Assembly (NCBI GenBank): GCA_025354405.1
Contig: JANXMY010000160.1
Location: 1 to 46,740, forward strand
Source of the DNA: Armatimonadota bacterium
GTDB lineage: Bacteria > Armatimonadota > Armatimonadia > Armatimonadales > Capsulimonadaceae
Length of the DNA stretch: 46,740 nucleotides
Reading direction: 5' to 3'
Part shown: in pieces, positions 27,878-41,356 of the stretch
Position numbering within the stretch: the first letter of the stretch is position 1
Layout: every line of letters starts with the position of its first letter
The notes under the pieces: model-generated
The model's input: only the letters and a program-made list of their open reading frames with translations
What the model was told of the DNA's origin: nothing
Databases searched by the model: none
Program-made: the position numbers and the translations under genes

Positions 27878-28495
27878 ATGCTACAGGACATTACTAAACA
27901 AGACGCACGGGGAATAATTTTGGATGCCGCAGAGCGCCAGCTGGCACACTACGGCTTTACCAAGATGACTATGAGTGATTTGGCGGAGGAGGCAGGAGTC
28001 GGGGTGGGAACGATCTACCTGCACTTCACTGGAAAAGCTGAAGTCGCGATCGCCGTTGTGGAGCGAAGCAATCAGCGCGTCGTCGAGCAGTTGGAGGCAG
28101 AAGCCCTAAACCCGCATGCCGTCGAAGACCGGCTGAAAGCGATACTGCTAAAGCGAATTCTGCTGCGCTTCGAGATCGTACGCCGCCGCAGCCACCAGAT
28201 GGACGAAGTCCGAGCACTGATTCGCCAGCAGAAAGTGATCAGGCCGACCTATTTGCGCTGGTTTGAAGTCGAAACAAAAATTGTTGCTAAAGTTCTCCAA
28301 GAGGGGAAGCGTTTGGGCGTGTTTGATTTCGATGATGCCATTTCCACAGCCCAGACAGTTCTCTGGTCCATGGACTCATTGATGCCGCGCAACCTGAAAC
28401 CGCATGATTTCGAGTCGCCGGACGAAGTGCGAAACAAAGCGGAGCGCCTTGCCGCTTTTGCCCTGCGCAGCCTGCGCCCGCTTGACAAGCACTAA
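27878..28495 (+). CDS. TetR/AcrR family transcriptional repressor
   Basis: A 205-residue regulator with the TetR DNA-binding domain: ILDAAERQLAHYGFTKMTMSDLAEEAGVGVGTIYLHFTGKAE (helix-turn-helix about residues 30-55). The C-terminal ligand domain is longer and helical; its inducer is unknown but is probably a substrate of the adjacent pumps. The ATG at 27878 starts 40 bases after a consensus promoter and directly after the operator. It is first in the efflux operon, though a second promoter inside its 3' end drives the following genes. Confidence 0.93.
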   Translation: MLQDITKQDARGIILDAAERQLAHYGFTKMTMSDLAEEAGVGVGTIYLHFTGKAEVAIAVVERSNQRVVEQLEAEALNPHAVEDRLKAILLKRILLRFEIVRRRSHQMDEVRALIRQQKVIRPTYLRWFEVETKIVAKVLQEGKRLGVFDFDDAISTAQTVLWSMDSLMPRNLKPHDFESPDEVRNKAERLAAFALRSLRPLDKH

Positions 28496-28511
28496 ATCTG
28501 GATTGTATAAT
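28482..28511 (+). promoter_or_regulatory. Promoter of the efflux genes
   Basis: TTGACA (28482-28487), 18 bases, TATAAT (28506-28511), both consensus. The -35 lies within the last codons of the TetR gene. The leader to the AbrB-like ATG at 28581 is about 63 bases. No copy of the TetR operator arms is visible here. Confidence 0.8.
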
Positions 28512-28580: not shown

Positions 28581-28874
28581 ATGAGCAAGACCGATGATAA
28601 AGATTTCTGCTTCAAAGACCATTTTTACGGTGCCGCTACGGTTGGAGAACGTGGACAGATCGTCATTCCAGCCGAGGCACGTAAAAAGTACGGAATCGAA
28701 AGCGGAGATAAAATCCTCATTATGGGTGCCCCCCATGAAAAAGGCCTGATGCTGGTGAAGATAGACGCCATGCGTGAATTTATGCACACACTGCTGGCTG
28801 ATTTGCAGCAGCTGGACCGAGAAATTCAGAACGACGAAAAATCAGATACAAAAGCGGAGGAAACAGCCTCTTGA
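28581..28874 (+). CDS. AbrB/SpoVT-type DNA-binding protein
   Basis: A 97-residue protein with an AbrB/MazE-type swapped-hairpin DNA-binding domain: AATVGERGQIVIPAEARKKYGI then SGDKILIMG and GLMLVKID. The C-terminal half is a charged helix (HTLLADLQQLDREIQ) that may mediate oligomerisation. In this operon position it is likely a second regulator of the efflux genes rather than an antitoxin; no toxin follows it. The ATG at 28581 has GGGGAAA upstream; a longer reading enters the promoter. Its TGA overlaps the TTG of the tolC-like gene by 4 bases. Confidence 0.87.
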   Translation: MSKTDDKDFCFKDHFYGAATVGERGQIVIPAEARKKYGIESGDKILIMGAPHEKGLMLVKIDAMREFMHTLLADLQQLDREIQNDEKSDTKAEETAS

Positions 28875-30715
28875 CACGCTCGAACCAGATCGCAACTAAG
28901 CTGCTGGCAGCTTGCCTTGCAGTGGCAGGCTTGTTCTCCCTTTCGACAGCAAGCCTTTTGGCACAAACAGCCACGCCTTCGCCGGCACTCCCTGCAGAAC
29001 GCGCCTATACACTGGATCAGATACTCAGTCTGGCACTCGATGCGAATTCCGCGGTGCGGCTTGCCCGTGAGAAAGTCATCAAATCCCAGCAGCTAATTTT
29101 CGAGGCTAACGCTGCCGGCCTGCCGCAGGTTCGCGTGGATATCGTCGACACCTACTCTAGCAGCAAGGGGTATGGCACAGCCGCAGGCGGTGGAAACTCG
29201 ACTGGGACCCTGCCAGGCGGCGGCCAGATTCCAGTGATTATCGATACAGGTGGGGGTAATACCGGGGCAGTCACCAGCAGTGGTGGTGGTGGAACCGCCA
29301 CCGGGGCCGGGTCCAGCTCCTTTAGCAGCCCCGGGACGAACTCGGTCGGCGGCGGCGGGACAAGCAGCGGTTCAGGTATTACAAACTCGATTCCAACCAA
29401 CTCGACACTTGGGACCGGGGGAACAACCGGAACGGGCGGCGCAGCGGGCACCGGCGCAACGGAAATCGGGGGGCTATACGGCACGACTGGACCAACGGCA
29501 AATCCAGGGGGTGGAACGACCGCGGCACCCCATATCCACACCAGCGAACTTAGTCCCACGGATTTACCGCCGATCATGCAAAGCTACAACACGGCCACAA
29601 ACCCGGCCGCCATCTCCAGCGTCCCTGCAGTACCCCATGACACGTCCACCGGCACCGGGACGGGTACTCAGCCTGGGAACGGGTCACTCAACACTGGATC
29701 GGGCGGCTACCACAACAACTACAGTGGACGCATTAGCATTACACAGGGCATCGATCTCTTCAAGCTCGTCCCGGCGGCCCAGGAAGTCGAGAACTTTACC
29801 CGGGACTTCTACATCACAGACTTGATTCGAGTTCAAAACGAGACGGCTCTTTCGGTCAAGAATCTCTTCTTTACGGTACTGCGCAATCAAGCCCAAGTCG
29901 GTGTATATCAGCAGCAGATAACAGCAGACACCGAAAGCGTCCGTGTCACACAGGCGCGGGTGACGGCGGGTGCTGCCGCGCAGTACGATCTCCTTACGGC
30001 ACAGACGACCCTATCGAATGCCCAGCAGCAGCTCAGCTCCTCCCGCAACACTCTGGCCCTGGCTGTGGTTAATCTGAACAATCTTATTGGAATCGCACCC
30101 TCCACCCGGATCACGCTCAGTGAACCGCAAGCCCCACCACTGGACCAAAAATTCGATGCGGATCGGTTAACCCAAAGCGCTTTTCGATTCCGCCCGGAGA
30201 TCAAGCAGTCCGAGAACAACGTCCTTATTGCCCGGCGGCTGATTAAGCTTGCCGGCTCCAGCCTCCTGCCTTCTTTTAGCATCGTTGGGACGGGAAACTA
30301 CAATGGTCATGTCGCAAGTGGCTCAAACAGCACAATGAGTCTCTCCGCCGTACTGGGCATCCCATTGTACGATGGCGGAGCGACCCGGGCTAAAGTCACC
30401 GAGGCGCAGTCTGACCTGCGCTCACAGCAGATCACCCGAGATCAGCTACGCCAGAACGTCTCTGTTGAAATTCTGCAGGCACTCTCCAATATCAATGATG
30501 CCCAGACCCGTGCGGCTTCCGCAACCGTAGGCGCGGCACAGGCGCAGGAAGCGCTGCGCCTGGCGAATGTCCGTTACCAGAACGGCATCGGAACCATTCT
30601 TGATGTCGTCAATGCAGACGCACAGCTTTCCCAGGCGCGAACGAATTCTCTGAATGCGCAGTATGATTATCAGACATCCCTCGCCCAGTTAACACGCGGC
30701 ATCGGTGGACGCTAA
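28871..30715 (+). CDS. TolC family outer-membrane efflux protein with a large Gly/Ser/Thr insertion
   Basis: A 614-residue TolC-type channel, longer than the usual 420-500. A signal peptide ends near LLAQTATP. The first helical repeat begins at DQILSLALDANSAVRLAREK; the second is at EALRLANVRYQNGIGTILDVVNADAQLSQA. Between strands at about residues 96-285 there is a run of Gly, Ser, Thr and Pro with few charges, where a short beta strand and surface loop are normally found. The frame stays open through it. The start is a TTG whose TTGA overlaps the AbrB-like stop. It forms the outer part of the tripartite pump encoded by the next genes. Confidence 0.93.
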   Translation: MTRSNQIATKLLAACLAVAGLFSLSTASLLAQTATPSPALPAERAYTLDQILSLALDANSAVRLAREKVIKSQQLIFEANAAGLPQVRVDIVDTYSSSKGYGTAAGGGNSTGTLPGGGQIPVIIDTGGGNTGAVTSSGGGGTATGAGSSSFSSPGTNSVGGGGTSSGSGITNSIPTNSTLGTGGTTGTGGAAGTGATEIGGLYGTTGPTANPGGGTTAAPHIHTSELSPTDLPPIMQSYNTATNPAAISSVPAVPHDTSTGTGTGTQPGNGSLNTGSGGYHNNYSGRISITQGIDLFKLVPAAQEVENFTRDFYITDLIRVQNETALSVKNLFFTVLRNQAQVGVYQQQITADTESVRVTQARVTAGAAAQYDLLTAQTTLSNAQQQLSSSRNTLALAVVNLNNLIGIAPSTRITLSEPQAPPLDQKFDADRLTQSAFRFRPEIKQSENNVLIARRLIKLAGSSLLPSFSIVGTGNYNGHVASGSNSTMSLSAVLGIPLYDGGATRAKVTEAQSDLRSQQITRDQLRQNVSVEILQALSNINDAQTRAASATVGAAQAQEALRLANVRYQNGIGTILDVVNADAQLSQARTNSLNAQYDYQTSLAQLTRGIGGR

Positions 30716-30726
30716 AGGACCGAAGC

Positions 30727-32349
30727 TTGAACAGAATGAGACTAAGTATGACTACGAAATATGTGACTGTGGTGCTGGCAGGGTTGTCCCTGGGTATCTT
30801 GATGGCAGGATGTGCGCCTAAAAAAGATGCCAAGAAGGAACCAGGCATCGGAGATCCCGGCGGGAGCGTCGCCGTACAGGTTGCGACAGTGAAGGCCGGT
30901 ACCATCTCCCGTACAGTTTCCGTCACCGGCAATACGCAGGCGCTCTCCGATGTCCAGATTTCGGCGCGGGCCGCAGGCCGGGTCACAGCGGTCAACTTCC
31001 GGGAGGGCCAGGTTGTAAGGATCGGCCAGATCGTCGTTCAGCAGGACAGCACCGATCTCCAGGCGAATGTCCGGCAGGCTCAGGCAAACATCGCCCAGGC
31101 CGAAGCAAATGTAGCCTCGGCACGAGCCAAGCTTTCCCAGTCGAAAACCAACTATACAATTCAGATACAAACGGCTACGTCAGCGGTCGCACAGGCTCGG
31201 GCTCAGGTGGCGGCGTCCAAACAGAACTATTTGAAAGTCAAAGGCGGCTCCCGCCCGCAGCAGGTGCTGGAAGCAAAAAACCAGGTGCTGCTTTCCAAAG
31301 CCAATTTAGATAATGCCCAGACGATCTTGACACGTAACAAGAGTCTGTACGCTCAAGGTGCCATCGCGAAAGCCGATCTGGACACGGCGCAGACGACGTA
31401 CGATGTACAGTACCAGACTTATCAGAATCAGAAAGTAGCCCTTTCTCTCACAATCGAAGGAAATCAACAAGAAGACGTTTCCGGGGCTTTGGCCCAGCTT
31501 CAGCAGCAGCAGGCCAACCTCGGCACAGCAATTGCAAATCAGCAGAATATTCAGGTGCGCCGCGACGATATTGCCGCGGCGCAGGCCGCCGTCACGCAGG
31601 CGTTGGCTGCCGTCCGCACCTCACAGGCGACACTGGCATTTAATCAGCAGCAGGTCGCAAACAGCTTTTTACGCTCACCGATTGATGGCATCGTCGCCGC
31701 TCGGGAGGTGGAGCCAGGACAGGTGGCTTCGCCGGGAACTAACCTGATGCGCATCGTCGGCTTGGGCTCTGTCTACTACGAGCCTACCATCTCGGAGACG
31801 GAATTTGCCAGCACTGCCGTCGGTAATCCCGTGACTGTGCAGGTAGATGCTCTGCCGGGCAAAACGTTCAACGGCACTGTAAGCGCAGTCTATCCGGCAG
31901 CCAGCCCGACAAACCGCGTCTTCACTCTGCGAGTAACAGTCTCCAACCCGCAGAACCAGCTGCGCCCGGGGATGTTCGCTCGGGGCAGCATCATCACGAA
32001 GGTTGCTCGCAACGTTCCCATCGTTCCGGCCTCAGCCCTGGTCCCTCTGGCTTCGACACAAGGGTTCCAGCCGAATGTCAGCAGTAATGAGCCAATTGCT
32101 TCCGGGACGCAGACCTTGCCACAGCAAGTCGTCGTCGTCGGCCCCAATCACACGGCCCAGCCAAGAGCAGTCACGATCGGAATCCAAAACCAACAGCAGG
32201 CAGAGATCACCAGTGGGCTGAAGTCCGGCGAACAGATCGTCATCGTCGGCCAGCAGGGCTTGAAGTCGGGTGACAAGCTTGCTATCGAAGATCAAAACGG
32301 CAACTTCACCGGACGTTCCAAAGCACAGAGTGCTTCTTCTGCTCCGTAA
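30727..32349 (+). CDS. Efflux membrane-fusion (periplasmic adaptor) lipoprotein
   Basis: A 540-residue HlyD/AcrA-type adaptor. The N-terminal signal ends in LMAGC, so it is lipidated. The order is barrel-sandwich half (VSVTGNTQALSDVQISARAAGRV), a very long coiled coil of about 220 residues with many Gln and Ala (ANVRQAQANIAQAEANV to FNQQQV), the second half (SFLRSPIDGIVAAREVEPG) and a beta barrel with VNPVTVQVDALPG-like sequence and LRPGMFARGSI. The start is a TTG with AAAGGA 7 bases before it; an ATG three codons on is possible. It links the RND pump to the TolC protein. Confidence 0.92.
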   Translation: MNRMRLSMTTKYVTVVLAGLSLGILMAGCAPKKDAKKEPGIGDPGGSVAVQVATVKAGTISRTVSVTGNTQALSDVQISARAAGRVTAVNFREGQVVRIGQIVVQQDSTDLQANVRQAQANIAQAEANVASARAKLSQSKTNYTIQIQTATSAVAQARAQVAASKQNYLKVKGGSRPQQVLEAKNQVLLSKANLDNAQTILTRNKSLYAQGAIAKADLDTAQTTYDVQYQTYQNQKVALSLTIEGNQQEDVSGALAQLQQQQANLGTAIANQQNIQVRRDDIAAAQAAVTQALAAVRTSQATLAFNQQQVANSFLRSPIDGIVAAREVEPGQVASPGTNLMRIVGLGSVYYEPTISETEFASTAVGNPVTVQVDALPGKTFNGTVSAVYPAASPTNRVFTLRVTVSNPQNQLRPGMFARGSIITKVARNVPIVPASALVPLASTQGFQPNVSSNEPIASGTQTLPQQVVVVGPNHTAQPRAVTIGIQNQQQAEITSGLKSGEQIVIVGQQGLKSGDKLAIEDQNGNFTGRSKAQSASSAP

Positions 32350-32363
32350 GAGACTATATCACA

Positions 32364-32684
32364 ATGCAATGGGTATTTCTTGGTCTGTCCATTCTGCTGG
32401 AGGTAGTGGGGACAGTCCTTCTGAAGCTGTCACACGGCTTCACGCGCCCCCTGCCGTCAGTGGGAATGGGACTGGCATATATCGCCAGCATCACCATCTT
32501 CAATTTCGCGGTGAAGTCGATACCGATGGGCCTGGCGTACGCGATCTGGGCCAGTGCTGGAACCGCGTCGATCGCGCTGATCAGCTTCGTTTTCTTTGGA
32601 GAGATCGTGACGACGATTAAAATCGTCAGCCTTTGCCTGATCATCGCCGGATGTGTCGGACTAAATTTGGCGAGTGGACATTGA
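32364..32684 (+). CDS. Small multidrug resistance (SMR) family transporter
   Basis: A 106-residue, four-helix SMR protein that works as a dimer driven by protons. Glu13 in the first helix (GLSILLEVVGTVLLKLS) is the essential proton and substrate site; PMGLAYAIWASAGTASIAL is typical of helix 3 and 4 (EmrE or Gdx-like). Whether it exports cationic drugs or guanidinium cannot be told. It sits between the adaptor and RND genes of a tripartite operon, 14 bases after the adaptor. That is an unusual location for an SMR gene. Confidence 0.92.
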   Translation: MQWVFLGLSILLEVVGTVLLKLSHGFTRPLPSVGMGLAYIASITIFNFAVKSIPMGLAYAIWASAGTASIALISFVFFGEIVTTIKIVSLCLIIAGCVGLNLASGH

Positions 32685-32805: not shown

Positions 32806-35800
32806 ATGGGTGTCACACGGCTGGCGATCACTCGCCCTATTGCAATTTTGATGGTCGTCGCAGCATTTCTCGTGCTGGGGCTCGTCAGCTATCTTCGGCT
32901 GCCGGCGGAGCTGAATCCGAAAGTGGATTTCCCCGTCGTTTCCGTCAATACAACCTACGCTGGGACAAACCCGCAGGAAATGGAGACGCTGATCACGAAG
33001 CCGATCGAGGACTCCATCAGTGGTGTCAGTGGCTTGAAGCAGATCGACTCCACGTCCCAATCCGGCGTTTCCGTCGTGCGCTGTACGTTCTTCTTTGGCA
33101 CGAATCTGGACACGGCGGCGGCGGATGTGCGTCAGAAGGTGGATGCCGTTCGCAAGCGGCTTCCGACCAATGCCGACAGCCCCAGTGTCGCGAAGCAGGA
33201 TAATGCCTCTCAGCCGGTCATGTACATTGCCATGAAAGGCAACCGCAGCCCGCGAGAACTGCGCGTTCTTGCGGATAACATCGTTTCCGAGCGGCTGCAG
33301 CAGGCCCCGGATGTCAGCGCAGTAAATGTCACCGGCGGCGAGCAGCGCGAGATTCGCGTTTCTGTAAAGAGTGACCGACTGACCGCGTATGGTATCACAA
33401 TCGGTCAGCTTGCCGCGGCGATCAATAATGCGAACCAAAACGTTTCTGCGGGTTATATCCAGACCAGCACAAGCTATTCTTCCATCCGGTTCCTGGGCGA
33501 ATTTGCGACAGTGAATGAGCTCAAGGATCTACGGATTGTCCTTCCCGGCAGCGGAACGACCAGCCTCGCCAGCGGTGCAACGGCTCCGAACGGCCCTAGC
33601 GGCGGCGGCGCAAATACCAGCCGCTCCGTGCGCCTCGCTGATATCGCCGATGTCAGCGACACGACGGTCGAAAAAACCGTGGAAAGTACGCTTGACGGTC
33701 AGGACTCCGTCACGCTGACCATCCAGAAGACCAGTGATGGCAACACACTCAAAGCAACCGACGGCGTACAGCAGCAGCTGAAGGCCGTCAAGCAATTTCT
33801 CCCCAAAGATGTAGGTTTCGTCGTCACGCGAGACGACTCGACAAACGTTCGGGATAACCTGAAAGATGTCGTCATCTCGCTGTGCCTCGGCGCGCTGCTG
33901 GCGACATTGATCGTCTATCTGTTTCTGCACAACTTTCGGGCCACCATCATCGTCGCTATCGCCATCCCAGTCTGCGTCATTTCCACGTTCCTGCCGATTG
34001 CCGCGTTCGGCTTTACGCTGAACTCGCTGACGCTGCTCGGCCTCTCGCTCGCCATCGGCATTTTGATCGACGACTCAATCGTCGTCATTGAAAATATCTC
34101 TCGTCACCTCAGCCTCGGGCAGGAACCCGCCGAGGCTGCACTTACGGGTCGAAGCGAAATCGGCCTCGCGGCGCTGACTCTCACCACCGTTGACCTGGTC
34201 GTTTTCATCCCCATCGCCTTCATGGGCGGTATCATCGGGGAGTTCTTCCGCAGCTTCGGTGTCTCGATTTCCGTGGCCGTTCTCATCTCACTGTTCGTCT
34301 CATTCACACTGACCCCCATGCTGGCGTCACGCTGGTTCAAGAAGGGGGAAACGCTCGAGAGCACCGGGGAAGGGCGACGTGGATTTTCGGCCGCATTTGA
34401 TCGGGGTTATCACAAGTTTGAGAATTCTTACAGGAATATGCTGCGGTTGTTTCTGAAGAACCCATGGACTGTGGTGATAGGTGGCAATCTTCTTCTGATT
34501 TTGACTTTCGTTTACCTGACAGTTTCCGGCCAGGGGGCTGCCGCGTTTACAACGGCTCTGAAGCTGAGCGAGATTATTCTTGTGCTTGGGCTGCTTGTGG
34601 CTTTTTGGAAACCCGCGACAGCGTTTCTCGCAAATACCGTTCTCTACCCGCTCCAAGCCCGCTTTGGGGATCGGAAAAATCGCGACGATAGGTCGCTGAC
34701 ACGACGGATGCGGGCCGCACCAGGCAATATCTCCCGGGAGGCCCTCGTCGTGACTGCGCTTGCGATCGCCGCGACCTTTGCCGTGTCGCTCGCTGGGGGT
34801 TATTTCGGCAAGTCGCTGGGCTTCCGCTTTGCACCGGGGCAGGACCAGAACCTCGTCTCTGTCAGTGTTCAGGCCAATGCCGGGACTTCACTGGAGCTGA
34901 CCAAAGGGATAACCGATGAGATTGAGCGGCGTATTCGGGCGGATGATTCGCTGAAGGGCGATGTCAAATATCTTCAAACTGTCGTCGGACGTAACTCGTC
35001 CGGCGGTCAGGGAGCGGGCGACACCGGGACGCAGTACGCGCAGATTCAGGTTTCACTCTTTGACCGCGCGGCTCCCTTCGATAAGCTCTCAGGCTTCTTC
35101 AGCCGACTAACCGGGCATCACGGGGCTGAGCCGCTGCGCGACGAGGCCGACGCCGATGTCGCGAAGAAGATTCGGGCACTGGTCAAAACTATTCCCGGCA
35201 ACGGCAGCAGCTTGAAGATTCAAGCCTCTGAAGTCAATGGATTTGGCGGCGGTGGTGCACCACTCCAGATCAACATGGTTGGCACAGATTTCCCACAACT
35301 GCTTGCCGCGGCCGCTAAGGTTCAGTCGGTGGTGGACAATACGCCAGGCACCTACGGCAGCGATCTGTCCTTCAAAGCCAGCCAGCCGGAGGTCCAGGTT
35401 CGTCTGGACCGGGTGCGGGCGGCCGAATACGGGCTGAATGTCACGGATGTGGCCACGACGATTGCGACCGCTCTGCAGGGGGATATCACCGCCAAGTACC
35501 GCGACCCAATCGACTCAAACCAATACAATATCAATATCATTCTGGCAAAAGCGGAACGCAACAGTGTCTACAATGTCGGCAATATTCCCGTTGGCTACCA
35601 GAACGGCAACCCGATCCCGCTCGGCGATGTCGCCAATATCAGCCTCGGGGCAGGCCCAACTCGCGTTGACCGCTTGAACCGCTTGCGGCAGGTGAACGTG
35701 ACGGCGTACCTGACCCCGGGAACGCAGATCAATAACGTCCGGTTCAAAGTTGACCCTCAGCTCACAAAGCTTGCCAAGCAGGGCCAGCTGGGCCAGGTCA

Positions 35801-36525
35801 ACTATACCTGGGGCGGGGAGGCACAGACCTCCGCAGATGAGTTCCCATATCTGATCCAGGCGATCCTGCTGGGGATTATTCTCTCGTATATGCTGATGGC
35901 GGCCCTGTTCGACAATATGCTGTATCCACTGTCGATCATGCTGACACTGCCGCAGGCCTGGGTCGGCGGATTGATCGCACTTCTGGTCACGGGAACGCCT
36001 TTCTCTCTGATTACGGCCATCGGCATCATCATGCTAAACGGCATCGCGACAAAAAATGCTATCCTGATGGTGGACTATACGAATACGCTGCGGCGGCGCG
36101 GATACAAGCGCATCGATGCCATTCTGGAAGCGGCCCCTACCCGCCTCCGGCCGGTACTGATGACGTCCCTCGCGATCGTCTTTGCCACTCTCCCCACTGC
36201 CGCCGCCCTGGGGCGAGGCGCGGGCTTCCGACAGCCACTGGGTATCACGGTGGTCGGCGGGGTGATTGTTTCCACCTTCCTGACCCTGCTCGTCATTCCA
36301 AGCGTCTATTTGCTGTTTGACAACTTTGCGCTCTGGCTAGGGCGAATCTTCCATCCCAGACATAACTCCGGTGATGACAATCCCGCAGGTGGCGCCGCCG
36401 GCAGACAAAATGGTATCAATGGGACGAACGGGTACATGAATCACCAGATCAATGGACAGACAAATGGGCAAAATGGGGAGATAAATCTGCCGGTTCGGGA
36501 GCGCGAAACCGAAGCGTTAGATTAA
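32806..36525 (+). CDS. RND family efflux pump with extra membrane segments
   Basis: A 1239-residue inner-membrane pump, about 200 longer than typical. It begins MGVTRLAITRPIAILMVVAAFLVLG, the first helix, and has the proton-relay Asp pair in helix 4 (GILIDDSIVVIEN, about 422-423). The normal seventh helix region (about 550-670) holds LKNPWTVVIGGNLLLILTFVYL, then a second hydrophobic segment (EIILVLGLLVAFW) and a third (LVVTALAIAATFAVSLAGG) before SLGFRFAPGQDQ. The final tail is repeated Asn-Gly (INGQTNGQNG). A Gly-rich loop is also inserted in the porter domain near 250-275. The ATG has AGGA 8 bases upstream. It is the last gene of the operon. Confidence 0.93.
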   Translation: MGVTRLAITRPIAILMVVAAFLVLGLVSYLRLPAELNPKVDFPVVSVNTTYAGTNPQEMETLITKPIEDSISGVSGLKQIDSTSQSGVSVVRCTFFFGTNLDTAAADVRQKVDAVRKRLPTNADSPSVAKQDNASQPVMYIAMKGNRSPRELRVLADNIVSERLQQAPDVSAVNVTGGEQREIRVSVKSDRLTAYGITIGQLAAAINNANQNVSAGYIQTSTSYSSIRFLGEFATVNELKDLRIVLPGSGTTSLASGATAPNGPSGGGANTSRSVRLADIADVSDTTVEKTVESTLDGQDSVTLTIQKTSDGNTLKATDGVQQQLKAVKQFLPKDVGFVVTRDDSTNVRDNLKDVVISLCLGALLATLIVYLFLHNFRATIIVAIAIPVCVISTFLPIAAFGFTLNSLTLLGLSLAIGILIDDSIVVIENISRHLSLGQEPAEAALTGRSEIGLAALTLTTVDLVVFIPIAFMGGIIGEFFRSFGVSISVAVLISLFVSFTLTPMLASRWFKKGETLESTGEGRRGFSAAFDRGYHKFENSYRNMLRLFLKNPWTVVIGGNLLLILTFVYLTVSGQGAAAFTTALKLSEIILVLGLLVAFWKPATAFLANTVLYPLQARFGDRKNRDDRSLTRRMRAAPGNISREALVVTALAIAATFAVSLAGGYFGKSLGFRFAPGQDQNLVSVSVQANAGTSLELTKGITDEIERRIRADDSLKGDVKYLQTVVGRNSSGGQGAGDTGTQYAQIQVSLFDRAAPFDKLSGFFSRLTGHHGAEPLRDEADADVAKKIRALVKTIPGNGSSLKIQASEVNGFGGGGAPLQINMVGTDFPQLLAAAAKVQSVVDNTPGTYGSDLSFKASQPEVQVRLDRVRAAEYGLNVTDVATTIATALQGDITAKYRDPIDSNQYNINIILAKAERNSVYNVGNIPVGYQNGNPIPLGDVANISLGAGPTRVDRLNRLRQVNVTAYLTPGTQINNVRFKVDPQLTKLAKQGQLGQVNYTWGGEAQTSADEFPYLIQAILLGIILSYMLMAALFDNMLYPLSIMLTLPQAWVGGLIALLVTGTPFSLITAIGIIMLNGIATKNAILMVDYTNTLRRRGYKRIDAILEAAPTRLRPVLMTSLAIVFATLPTAAALGRGAGFRQPLGITVVGGVIVSTFLTLLVIPSVYLLFDNFALWLGRIFHPRHNSGDDNPAGGAAGRQNGINGTNGYMNHQINGQTNGQNGEINLPVRERETEALD

Positions 36526-37552: not shown

Positions 37553-38173
37553 GCGTCACACTCTCCTCTAAGGAACGGACAAAAGTATTCAAGCTCGGGT
37601 TGTACTTGTACAATTCCATGAGCTTTTTGTGCCTTGAATACGGCTCGGAGACAATCCGATAATAGTCAGGCTGCTTATTTTTCGCGTCAATTGAAAACGA
37701 TTTTTGTTTGATCAGTGCTCGGTTCAGCATTTCCAGACAATGCTTCGTCTTGGTTTTCTTGTCTTCGGTGTAAAGCAGTGGCAGCAGCCAGCATTCTGTC
37801 GATTGTACGGCAATGGCAAAAAGAATTCGCGGTCTGTATTTTTCATAAAATTCTAAACCGATGCGCTGCGCCAAGAAAATTCGTTGCCCTCTTCGTCTCT
37901 GCCGCTGACTTGGTAGTCATGGCACACATCGGTATCGATTTGCACGACTATGAAATCGTTAAATTGAAGCGCATCTTTGAAACGATCACTCGAGCAATAC
38001 TCAAGCACTTTGTGCCAATTTCCGGGACTTACTGTTCGGTTTAAGTCCGTCTCATCCCGCAACGGCTGTAATGGATTGATGTCAATCTCGACAGTACCAG
38101 CGAAACCGAGCAGAATATTCTCGATAACGATTTGGTCAGTAATTCCTTCGGTGACTAGAGCAAAACTTGGCAT
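37542..38173 (-). pseudogene. TOPRIM-like nuclease gene, frameshifted near 37876-37879
   Basis: The ATG at 38173 overlaps the repaired stop of the ATPase gene (TAATG). The first 100 residues have a TOPRIM-like opening ([12 protein letters not shown], Glu9 and Asp13) and an Asp-x-Asp in VVQIDTDV (Asp80, Asp82). The frame then stops at 37853 after EFSWRSASV. The natural continuation, LAQRIGLEFYEKYRPRI and then CWLLPLLY, is in another frame ending at 37542. One extra A in the run at 37876-37879 (T in the gene) joins the frames and would give about 213 residues. The second part ends with YSRHKKLMELYKYNPSL. The gene is likely broken, or the base is a sequencing loss. Confidence 0.72.
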
Positions 38174-39347
38174 TAGAAGTTTCTTGGTAGACCTCCCAGA
38201 TAGCCGCGCAAAATGCTTCCGAAAGCGGAACAGGTGCCTGTCCTTCGGCGGCATCCGGTTTGAATATTCTTTTGACCTTTGTGTGCCCCATCTTATTTCG
38301 GGAGACGACAAATAATCGCTGCTCATCGTCATTCAAATTAAGGCCATCCAAGATCGCCGGATTATGCGTAGTGACAATCGCTTGTTTGTCGTGTGCTTTT
38401 GCCAGAGTAGCTAATTCTATTAGGAGCCGACTGCACAATTTAGGATTTAAAGAGGCGTCGATGTTGTCGATTGCAAAGAACGACGGCGTTTCGCGGCTGA
38501 TGAACAGCGTAAAGTAGAACAGTAGAAATAGAAAACCTTCGTTCGCGCTCTTCTGAGTGAAATACGAGAGGCTTTCGTCAAGATATCTGTCCTTGATGTT
38601 GATACTACGCTCACCGAATGGTAGGTTGGATGCGATATTAAAGTCGCCAAACCAGTCCAATAGCATTAGTTCTTTTTTGATTTCTGCTAGACTATTCATA
38701 TTCTCATCGAAGGAGAGATATGTGAGCAGCTTGAATAGACCCTCACCTTTGATGCCAAGCGGTTGGATTTGTGCTTCTGTCTCAAATGTCCTTAGAGCGG
38801 AGTTTTCTGGCGAATATATCAAAAAGTTCTGCAACTCTAGTGGTGGAAGCAATTTTCCAAAGTGAGGTTCTAGTTTATCCCATTGCTCATCAGAAACTGG
38901 TGTAATTTTATTTTCTCTTTGAGTCTTTTTCAGCGCGACTAACATCTCGTCAGTATTTCTCCAAGGTCTTTCGCCAAGATTCTGCCAAGACGAGTAAGGA
39001 GAATTCTTTGTATTCTGTAAAACGCACTGGAATTCTTTTGGCTCGTTTGAGTCCTGCTCCGCATCTGCCGACTTACTGTCAGCGACTGAAATCGTGATAT
39101 CATCCGTAACATCCTGAGCGTCGAATGCGGAACGCATGAAGCGGGCATCATCGGCAACACGGATGCCGCGCGATGATAAGAACTCATGGTCAAGTTTATC
39201 GGCGGCGGCGGCTGAACACAGCGCGACCGCCTCTAAGATATTGCTTTTCCCGCACCCGTTTTCGCCGATCAAAACAGTGACTCTGCCTAGTTTAAAATCC
39301 AGCTCTTTGATAGACTTATAGTTTCTGATTGAAACCTGGCTGATCAT
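38136..39347 (-). CDS. AAA ATPase (OLD/AAA15-like) with an altered C-terminus
   Basis: A 403-residue ABC/SMC-type ATPase like those in OLD-type systems. Walker A is GENGCGKS (28-35). Walker B is [12 protein letters not shown], and the switch region is [12 protein letters not shown]. The ATG at 39347 overlaps the nadE stop (ATGA) and has GGAG upstream. Near the end, [13 protein letters not shown] replaces the expected pattern; adding one T to TTTT (38210-38213 as A on the plus strand) would instead read [17 protein letters not shown] followed by TAA at 38175-38173. That stop shares one base with the ATG of the TOPRIM gene, as expected for a coupled pair. As it stands, about 30 C-terminal residues are altered. 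Its partner is the TOPRIM-like gene. Confidence 0.85.
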
Positions 39348-41356
39348 GGCACATTCTCCTCTAACTCTTGGAGCCACACTGTCGCTTCAGAATCGCTCGG
39401 GGCACGCCAGTCGCCGCGGGGGGAGAGGGAGCCGCCGGAGCCGATTTTGGGGCCGTTTGGCATGGCGGAGCGCTTGAACTGGCTGGTTTGGAAGAAGCGA
39501 AACAGGAAGACCCCAAGCCACTTTTTGATGGTCGCCAGATCGTACTTGTCGCCCCAGGCGCAGTGGGCCAGATACGCCACTTTGCTCGGGCGAAACCCGT
39601 AACGAGTCGTGTAATAGATGTGAAAGTCCTGAAGCTCGTAAGGACCGATCTTTTCCTGTGTGCTTTGAATTCCCCCCCCTTCGATGCCCGGTGTATGTGG
39701 CACCAGTTCCGGGGAGATCTCGGTGTCGAGGATAGCTTGCAGCAAAGCTCCGACTTTGCCGTCGAACTGCTCCGAAGCGATGACCCAGCGCAGGAGATAT
39801 TGGATCAAGGTTTTGGGTACGGATGCATTGACATTATAGTGTGACATCTGGTCGCCGACCCCATATGTCGCCCAGCCCAGAGCCATTTCGCTGAGGTCCC
39901 CGGTACCTAAGACTAATGCATTGTTGTAGTTCGCCAGCCGGAAAAGGTGCGAGGTGCGCTCCCCGGCCTGAACATTTTCAAATGTGATGTCATAAAGAGG
40001 CTCCCCGTTCTTGCCGAACGGATGATTGATATCGCGCAGCATTTGGAGGCAGGAAGGGCGGATATCGATTTCGGTGGAAGTGACACCCAAAGCATCCATG
40101 AGTGCCAGGGCGTTTGCTTTCGTGCCGTCGCTGGTGGCGAAACCGGGCATGGTATAACCCAGAATATTGGTGCGCGGCAGGCCGAGCCGGTCCATCGTCC
40201 GCGCGGCAACGATCATGGCCTGGGTCGAATCGAGGCCGCCGGAGACACCAATGACGATATTGGGGATCCCCGTACTCGCCAGCCGCTTCATCAGCCCGTG
40301 GACCTGGATATTATAGGCTTCGTAGCAGTGCGCATCCCGTTCCTTCAAGTCGCTGGGCACATAGGGGAAGTCCTCAAGTGGACGCAGCAATGCGGCGGCG
40401 GGGAGTGTCGGGATTTCGTACTCATACGAAATTCGACGAATGGCGCGGACCTGTTCGCGGTAGTCCCCACGTGTATCCTGGAAGCTCGTCAGCCGCATAC
40501 GTTCCTGAGCCAGACGCTCCAGATCGATGTCGGCGGTGATGATCTGCTCTTCACTTGCAAAACGAGACGCTTCAGCCAGCATTTCGTTGTTTTCGTAAAT
40601 GAGGGCATGACCATCCCACGCGAGATCGGTGGTCGACTCTCCCGGTCCGGCGGCGGAGTAAAGATAGGCGGCGACACATCGGCCAGATTGCGTGGCGCAA
40701 AGCGTTTTCCGGTACTCCGCTTTGCCGATTGTGATGTTGCTGGCAGAGAGGTTTGCTAGAACCGAGGCCCCGGCCAGGGCGGCAAAGGTGCTGGGGGGGA
40801 TGGGTGTCCAGACATCCTCGCAGATTTCAGTGTGCAGCACAAAGCCGGGGATGTTCACGGCATCGTAAATCAAGTCATTTCCGAAAGGAATACGCTCTCC
40901 GAACAGCGTGACTTCGGAAACAATCGCGTCACGGCCGGATGTAAACTGCCGTTTCTCGTAAAACTCGCGGTAGTTCGGCAGATAAGTCTTCGGCGTAATT
41001 CCGAGAATGCGCCCCTGATAAATCGCGATGGCGCAGTTAAACAAGGCCCCATCGAAGCGCAGCGGTGCCCCGACCAGCAGCACCGGGCTAAGGTCGAGGC
41101 TGGCTTTGACCAGACTGCCAAGTGCGGCGAGAGTCGCTTCCAGCAGGGCATCCTGATGAAACAGGTCTTCGTTCGAATACGCCGAGAGGCCAAGCTCCGG
41201 GAACAGCGCGACGGCTGCCCCCATTGTGGAAGCCTGCTTCGCCAGGCTCAATGTTTGCGCCGTGTTGAATTCCGGGTCGGCAACGCGCAGCCTCGGAATA
41301 CAAACACAGGCCCGGATAAAGCCGTGCGCGTACGGAGAGTAAAACGAAGGAATCAT
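39344..41356 (-). CDS. nadE: Glutamine-dependent NAD(+) synthetase
   Basis: A 670-residue enzyme that amidates NaAD to NAD using glutamine. The N-terminal nitrilase domain has Glu in [10 protein letters not shown], Lys in [13 protein letters not shown] and the catalytic Cys in HTEICEDVW. The C-terminal synthetase has the ATP loop GVSGGLDST and a region with [12 protein letters not shown]. The start at 41356 is chosen because it lies 6 bases after a TATAAC box with a TTGACT 17 bases before it, which suggests a leaderless transcript; a start at 41401 would be inside the promoter. Its stop overlaps the ATPase ATG. Confidence 0.95.

Follow-up and report, generated by a model that had tools for sequence, protein, structure and literature searches.

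An SMR transporter gene inside a tripartite RND pump operon of Armatimonadota and its possible role in two-step export

The window, a stretch of 46,740 nucleotides from an Armatimonadota bacterium of the family Capsulimonadaceae (assembly GCA_025354405.1, contig JANXMY010000160.1), carries an EmrE-like SMR transporter gene between the adaptor and the permease genes of a tripartite RND pump. The most likely function of this operon would be two-step export, in which the SMR protein delivers substrates to the periplasm and the RND complex moves them outwards, and we give this reading a probability of about 0.5. Both protein families as well as the cooperation model are already known; the operon linkage in one genus, probably repeated in a cousin, is apparently new. 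By title and beginning of the abstract, no report that places an SMR gene within an RND operon was found in the open-access literature, and a term search of the SMR review PMC9574504 gave no hit for "TolC" in its main text. A natural operon with SMR and RND genes, together with SMR-free sister operons as controls, would provide a compact system to separate supply from removal.

Organization of the pump cluster

The genes of the cluster follow each other on the plus strand in the order TetR, AbrB-like, outer-membrane channel, adaptor, SMR and RND (Table 1), and with a PF02321 channel, a PF16576/TIGR01730 adaptor and a PF00873 permease the tripartite set is complete. The initial annotation had placed an SMR gene encoding Glu13 between the adaptor and RND genes and 14 bases from the adaptor. 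Both statements were borne out, the first by the profile matches of the three genes (PF00893, TIGR01730 and PF00873) and the second by the adaptor stop codon, which ends at 32349. The distance from the SMR stop codon to the RND start is 121 bases. A pattern scan revealed no terminator-like site on the plus strand between adaptor and RND; the terminator-like sites of the region (5 observed, 5.1 in shuffles) are pattern matches only.

Judging from its position, the TetR gene likely regulates the cluster. Promoter-like sites were observed four times in the region compared with a mean of 2.2 in shuffled sequences, so that the sigma-70-like site before the AbrB-like gene is to be read as a sequence match only. 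The start codon of the AbrB-like gene was set by comparison with the congener G001, and an AbrB match was present in 10 of the 15 compared relative loci.

Table 1. Features of the pump cluster in the window
Feature	Position	Strand	Evidence and remarks
TetR-family regulator	27878..28495	+	PF00440 57.5 bits
Promoter-like TTGACA-18-TATAAT	28482..28511	+	12/12 consensus positions; overlaps TetR end, upstream of AbrB-like gene
AbrB/MazE-like small protein	28581..28874	+	PF04014 30.2 bits; TIGR01439 38 bits; first operon gene
TolC-like outer-membrane channel	28871..30715	+	PF02321 170 bits; start overlaps AbrB stop
Periplasmic adaptor of RND pump	30727..32349	+	TIGR01730 RND_mfp 211.1 bits (cut-off 94.9); PF16576 109.3 bits
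SMR transporter, EmrE-like by residues, Glu13	32364..32684	+	PF00893 90.8 bits (cut-off 23.7; model positions 1-93 of 93); 106 aa; ATG start
RND permease	32806..36525	+	PF00873 791.8 bits; 1239 aa

The SMR protein resembles EmrE and has an altered hinge

Apart from the SMR gene, the window genome (96% complete) has no PF00893 match. Of the four transmembrane helices that are usual for SMR proteins of about 105 aa, a simple hydropathy scan of the 106 amino acids resolved the first and the last, with overlapping peaks in the middle. Glu13 lies in helix 1, in a column that holds Glu in 163 of 165 aligned SMR proteins. Comparison with solved relatives revealed EmrE as the closest (75 bits; Gdx-Clo 59.6 bits). 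The likeness to EmrE comprises the length, Glu13 (corresponding to Glu14 in EmrE), Tyr39, Tyr59, Trp62, the second Gly of the hinge, Gly16 and Asn101. At the last two positions Gdx-Clo has Trp and Lys; these marks for Qac versus Gdx were picked by us from the alignment as positions at which EmrE and Gdx-Clo differ. By its residues, the SMR protein thus resembles EmrE (Qac) more closely than the guanidinium exporters. The NCBIfam subtype models all remained below their cut-offs, with SugE on top (83.2 of 126 bits), followed by EbrB (80.1 of 160 bits) and the EmrE family (77 of 162 bits), and the drug-exporter subtype is therefore not firm: the protein resembles a Qac transporter rather than being assigned as one. 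The gene also differs from the EmrE/Qac subtype by its location in an RND operon.

Two residues set the protein apart from EmrE, namely Ser64 (Gly65 in EmrE) and Ser9 (Ala10 in EmrE). The GxG hinge of helix 3 is not intact, as it reads S64-A65-G66 in the window and S-V-G in G001. Position 64 is occupied by Gly in 160 of the 165 aligned proteins and by Ser in three (window, G001 and L274); with the first Gly missing in 5 of 165, the hinge was treated as usual and not as family-defining. Position 9 holds Ala in 157 of 165 proteins and Ser in seven, including both the window and G001. In EmrE, alternating access is governed by the hinge region (PMC6599891). A Ser at the near-invariant Gly64 could change or reduce transport by the SMR protein.

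The slot of the SMR gene is conserved in a congener

Among 61 genomes (the window genome and 60 relatives), a close SMR protein was found in G001 alone (86% identity; next best 46%). In this genome, the one congener compared, the gene occupies the same slot between adaptor and RND. Between the window and G001 the SMR genes gave a dN of 0.085-0.089 and a dS of 0.72-0.95, with a dN/dS of about 0.1. This dS is near that of the RND gene (0.90-1.01) and under that of the channel and adaptor genes (1.03-1.79). The shared slot and the dN/dS between the two species indicate that the SMR gene is older than their split and under constraint. The gap between SMR and RND in G001 measures 646 bases and holds toxin-antitoxin-like ORFs (L099 9338-9926), one for a BrnT-like toxin (PF04365, 61.1 bits) and a second without Pfam match. 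The G001 stretch (L099) contains no TetR match, nor is there such an ORF between CysE and AbrB (around 5109), both of which are kept.

The SMR gene is probably a genus-level addition to an older pump operon

All 19 genomes of the order, among them the window genome, have an adaptor relative (E up to 1e-20). Besides G001 and G015, 14 adaptor loci from 12 genomes were examined, and no SMR match was found in them; among the 15 loci that were compared with each other (14 genomes; L155 left out), an SMR gene was present in two (G001 and G015). For G009, G012, G013 and G016 the adaptor loci stood outside this comparison, and these four genomes gave no PF00893 match.

Absence of the SMR gene from this position in all relatives, which according to the initial annotation would speak against its reading, was not observed, since G001 has the gene. 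It is, however, lacking at the adaptor-RND junction of four members of the family (G002, G003, G004 and G005). The locus of a further member, G006, ends inside the adaptor and its junction lies beyond. No PF00893 match was obtained in the five genomes G002-G006, of which G006 is 69% and G003 87% complete. The neighbours CysE, LdcA or RsgA link the loci of G002, G003, G004 and G006 to the window locus; the G005 stretch has none of these three. An ancestral SMR gene in the operon is not supported by the SMR-free junctions and the lack of PF00893 matches in these family members. The four junctions point instead to an SMR gene added at the level of the genus, outside the ancestral pump, and most simply this would be an insertion in the genus ancestor into an older operon of AbrB, channel, adaptor and RND genes. 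Since the four SMR-free relatives keep the pump, the RND pump needs no SMR protein. The nearest SMR relatives (50-53% identity, among the matches listed) belong to the group of L019, a Zetaproteobacteria record, and the best one of the own phylum outside the genus reaches 46%.

A second SMR gene in a related operon of a sister family

In G015, which belongs to a sister family of the same order, the genes are arranged on one strand as TetR-SMR-AbrB-channel-adaptor-RND, with a 4-base overlap between the end of TetR and the start of SMR. Compared with the window, identity amounts to 57% for AbrB, 42% for the channel and 35-38% for the adaptor, whereas the RND permease aligns in two pieces with 36% and 30%. 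G011 has two RND genes in tandem; the one in front resembles the G015 permease, and the one behind it is closer to the permease of the window. Because AbrB, channel and adaptor match and the RND permease differs, this is probably, though not certainly, the same operon as in the window. As a separate observation, the tandem permeases of G011 (L147 4061-10853) lie behind one adaptor, and their identity to the window permease is 48% for the second and 37% for the first.

The SMR protein of G015 carries Gly in the hinge, as is usual, and shares 40% identity with that of the window; the SMR tree does not place the two as nearest relatives. This tree was obtained from 165 rows and 104 columns by a quick search with no bootstrap, and 75 of its 162 inner branches are open. 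Rows were chosen from 231 distinct domains, those shorter than 90 aa being dropped and EmrE and Gdx-Clo added; of the 75 genome_contigs loci (mostly Streptomyces) every twelfth was kept. The window and G001 were paired with an SH-aLRT of 100. Among larger sets, only one with support contains the window or G015; it is a group of 67 rows shared by both, so that a separate origin of the G015 SMR gene is likely, not proven. Its sequence and position suggest that an SMR gene was probably recruited a second time into the same operon. Alternatively, the gene could have arrived as a TetR-SMR pair that landed there. In G018, the genus mate of G015, the contig ends just upstream of AbrB.

Linkage of SMR and RND genes is rare elsewhere

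The initial annotation had proposed a survey of the gene neighbourhoods of SMR homologs; this survey revealed operon linkage in G001 and G015 and rarity elsewhere. In the own phylum, an RND, adaptor or channel match lay within 6 kb of 4 of 34 SMR copies (window excluded), in an operon in G001 and G015 and nearby in G157 and G158. The 34 copies represent all places above 60 bits and one weak match (G022), with other weak matches left out. Linkage between SMR and RND genes was seldom seen in the SMR copies sampled from two other groups, namely 1 of 70 in the group of L019 (G941, among the matches listed) and 0 of 50 in the group of L029 (from 77 places listed). The genome_contigs loci, for the most part from Streptomyces and with L019 and L029 counted again, gave 0 of 80. 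These counts apply within the sensitivity of the profiles, flanks of just 1.5 kb for 60 loci and picks made by similarity to the window SMR protein. The channel and adaptor profiles were built from the order of the window and are weak outside it: in G941 the channel was missed and the adaptor barely caught (22 bits), whereas RND was caught at 462 bits. The survey thus leans mainly on the RND profile, with sensitivity gauged in G941.

G157 and G158 were rejected as further cases, as their SMR genes lie past the channel gene at a distance of about 1.1-1.2 kb. An ORF on the opposite strand intervenes in G157, whose SMR protein is Gdx-like (Gdx-Clo 93.3 bits, EmrE 33.8 bits). The G941 locus has the order channel (PF02321 112.8 bits), adaptor, RND (PF00873 762.8 bits) and SMR. 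Its adaptor is probable, as it was found by our own profile and has no Pfam match. The SMR gene (L250:8990-9328) follows about 250 bases downstream of RND on the same strand, and G941 was retained as a possible third case of linkage, without being classed as an operon. G032 has two SMR genes side by side that likely form a pair (L103 7707-8613, the same region as L006); in one of them Gly takes the place of the essential Glu.

Proposed function of the operon and alternative explanations

In the proposed mechanism, an EmrE-like SMR gene would have entered the adaptor-RND junction in the genus ancestor and been kept under purifying selection. Co-transcribed with the pump, the SMR protein would act as a proton-driven antiporter carrying lipophilic cations from the cytoplasm to the periplasm or the outer leaflet, and the complex of RND, adaptor and channel would take up these cations and expel them. 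The operon would thus make both export steps together, and direct contact between SMR and RND need not be assumed. Two-step export is favoured by the common strand, the 14-base gap and the lack of a plus-strand terminator-like site between adaptor and RND. It is further favoured by the conservation of the slot in G001, the dN/dS value and the single PF00893 match in the genome, by the probable recruitment in G015 and the rarity of linkage elsewhere, as well as by the EmrE-like Glu13, Tyr39, Tyr59, Trp62 and second hinge Gly. On the RND side, the 121-base gap (and the longer one in G001) makes tight coupling weaker.

In E. coli, the genes of single-component exporters and those of AcrAB-TolC are unlinked, in contrast to the operon-like cluster of the window. 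A further argument for two-step export comes from published cooperation in this species: single-component exporters including EmrE are argued to feed the periplasm for AcrAB-TolC, with direct contact posed as an open question (PMC4822809). EmrE, MdfA and MdtM with AcrAB-TolC share with the window the proposed logic of single-component supply to the periplasm and tripartite expulsion (PMC4822809); that system was studied by mutants, whereas the one in the window is proposed from its genes. The two-step pairing suggested in the initial annotation agrees with this work and with the probable recruitment in G015. Against it stands a known E. coli case, in which the MFS gene mdtD (iceT) lies within the mdtABC operon, is not required for the drug resistance conferred by this operon (PMC4462101) and has been linked to the efflux of iron-citrate (PMC4462101, PMC4107485). 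The likeness to the window consists in a single-component transporter gene within an RND operon; the differences are the MFS type of MdtD, its dispensability and the link to iron-citrate. This case indicates that operon membership is no proof that a transporter serves the pump.

A tentative but serious alternative is therefore that only regulation is shared, the SMR protein being co-induced with the pump and acting on its own substrates as an independent resistance or metabolite exporter that passes nothing to RND. The mdtD precedent and the SMR-free relatives that retain the pump fit such an exporter, and the top score of the SugE model would suit another substrate. These points, together with Ser64, count against two-step export. 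What speaks against shared regulation alone is that two lineages probably took an SMR gene into the same operon, and lipophilic cations are common substrates of both SMR and RND drug pumps.

Less probable, and in our view unlikely, is a chance insertion, in which an SMR gene obtained by horizontal transfer would have settled in a junction that tolerates insertions and been retained for a benefit of its own. Change at this junction is seen from the BrnT-like and the further ORF right behind the SMR gene in G001, and the nearest SMR proteins among the matches listed are found in the group of L019 rather than in the own phylum. The common strand, the 14-base spacing, the retention since the two species diverged, with a dS near that of RND, and the probable second case in G015 argue against it. 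Equally doubtful is the far-reaching variant of a dedicated two-stage module, in which two lineages of the same order would have made an SMR protein a genetic part of their tripartite RND pump, with a helix-3 hinge that was altered in one lineage and may be tuned for direct hand-over to the permease. That the SMR protein has lost or changed ordinary drug transport through Ser64 and Ser9 and serves the RND pump in the membrane as an accessory subunit is very improbable: the rarity of both residues and the importance of the hinge in EmrE would suit it, but the other catalytic residues are EmrE-like, L274 with the third Ser64 has no RND match in its stretch, and no RND pump is known to us to have an SMR protein as an accessory subunit.

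Further features of the pump and its surroundings

As in AcrB-type tripartite RND pumps, the cluster combines a channel, an adaptor and an ACR_tran permease; it differs from them by the AbrB-like first gene and by a permease with two extra hydrophobic segments. At residues about 555-660 of the permease, hydropathy revealed three hydrophobic segments compared with one in the relatives from G002, G003 and G004; a similar triplet is present in those from G007 and G008. The roughly 100 extra residues probably form two extra helices. In its first half, the channel (28871-30715) contains a long stretch rich in Gly, Ser and Thr, and the matches of most relatives start only past this stretch. Near RsgA, on the minus strand of the window (37853-39377), an ATPase-like ORF of 413 aa lies together with a smaller ORF and resembles, by eye only, an OLD-type or a defence-like pair.
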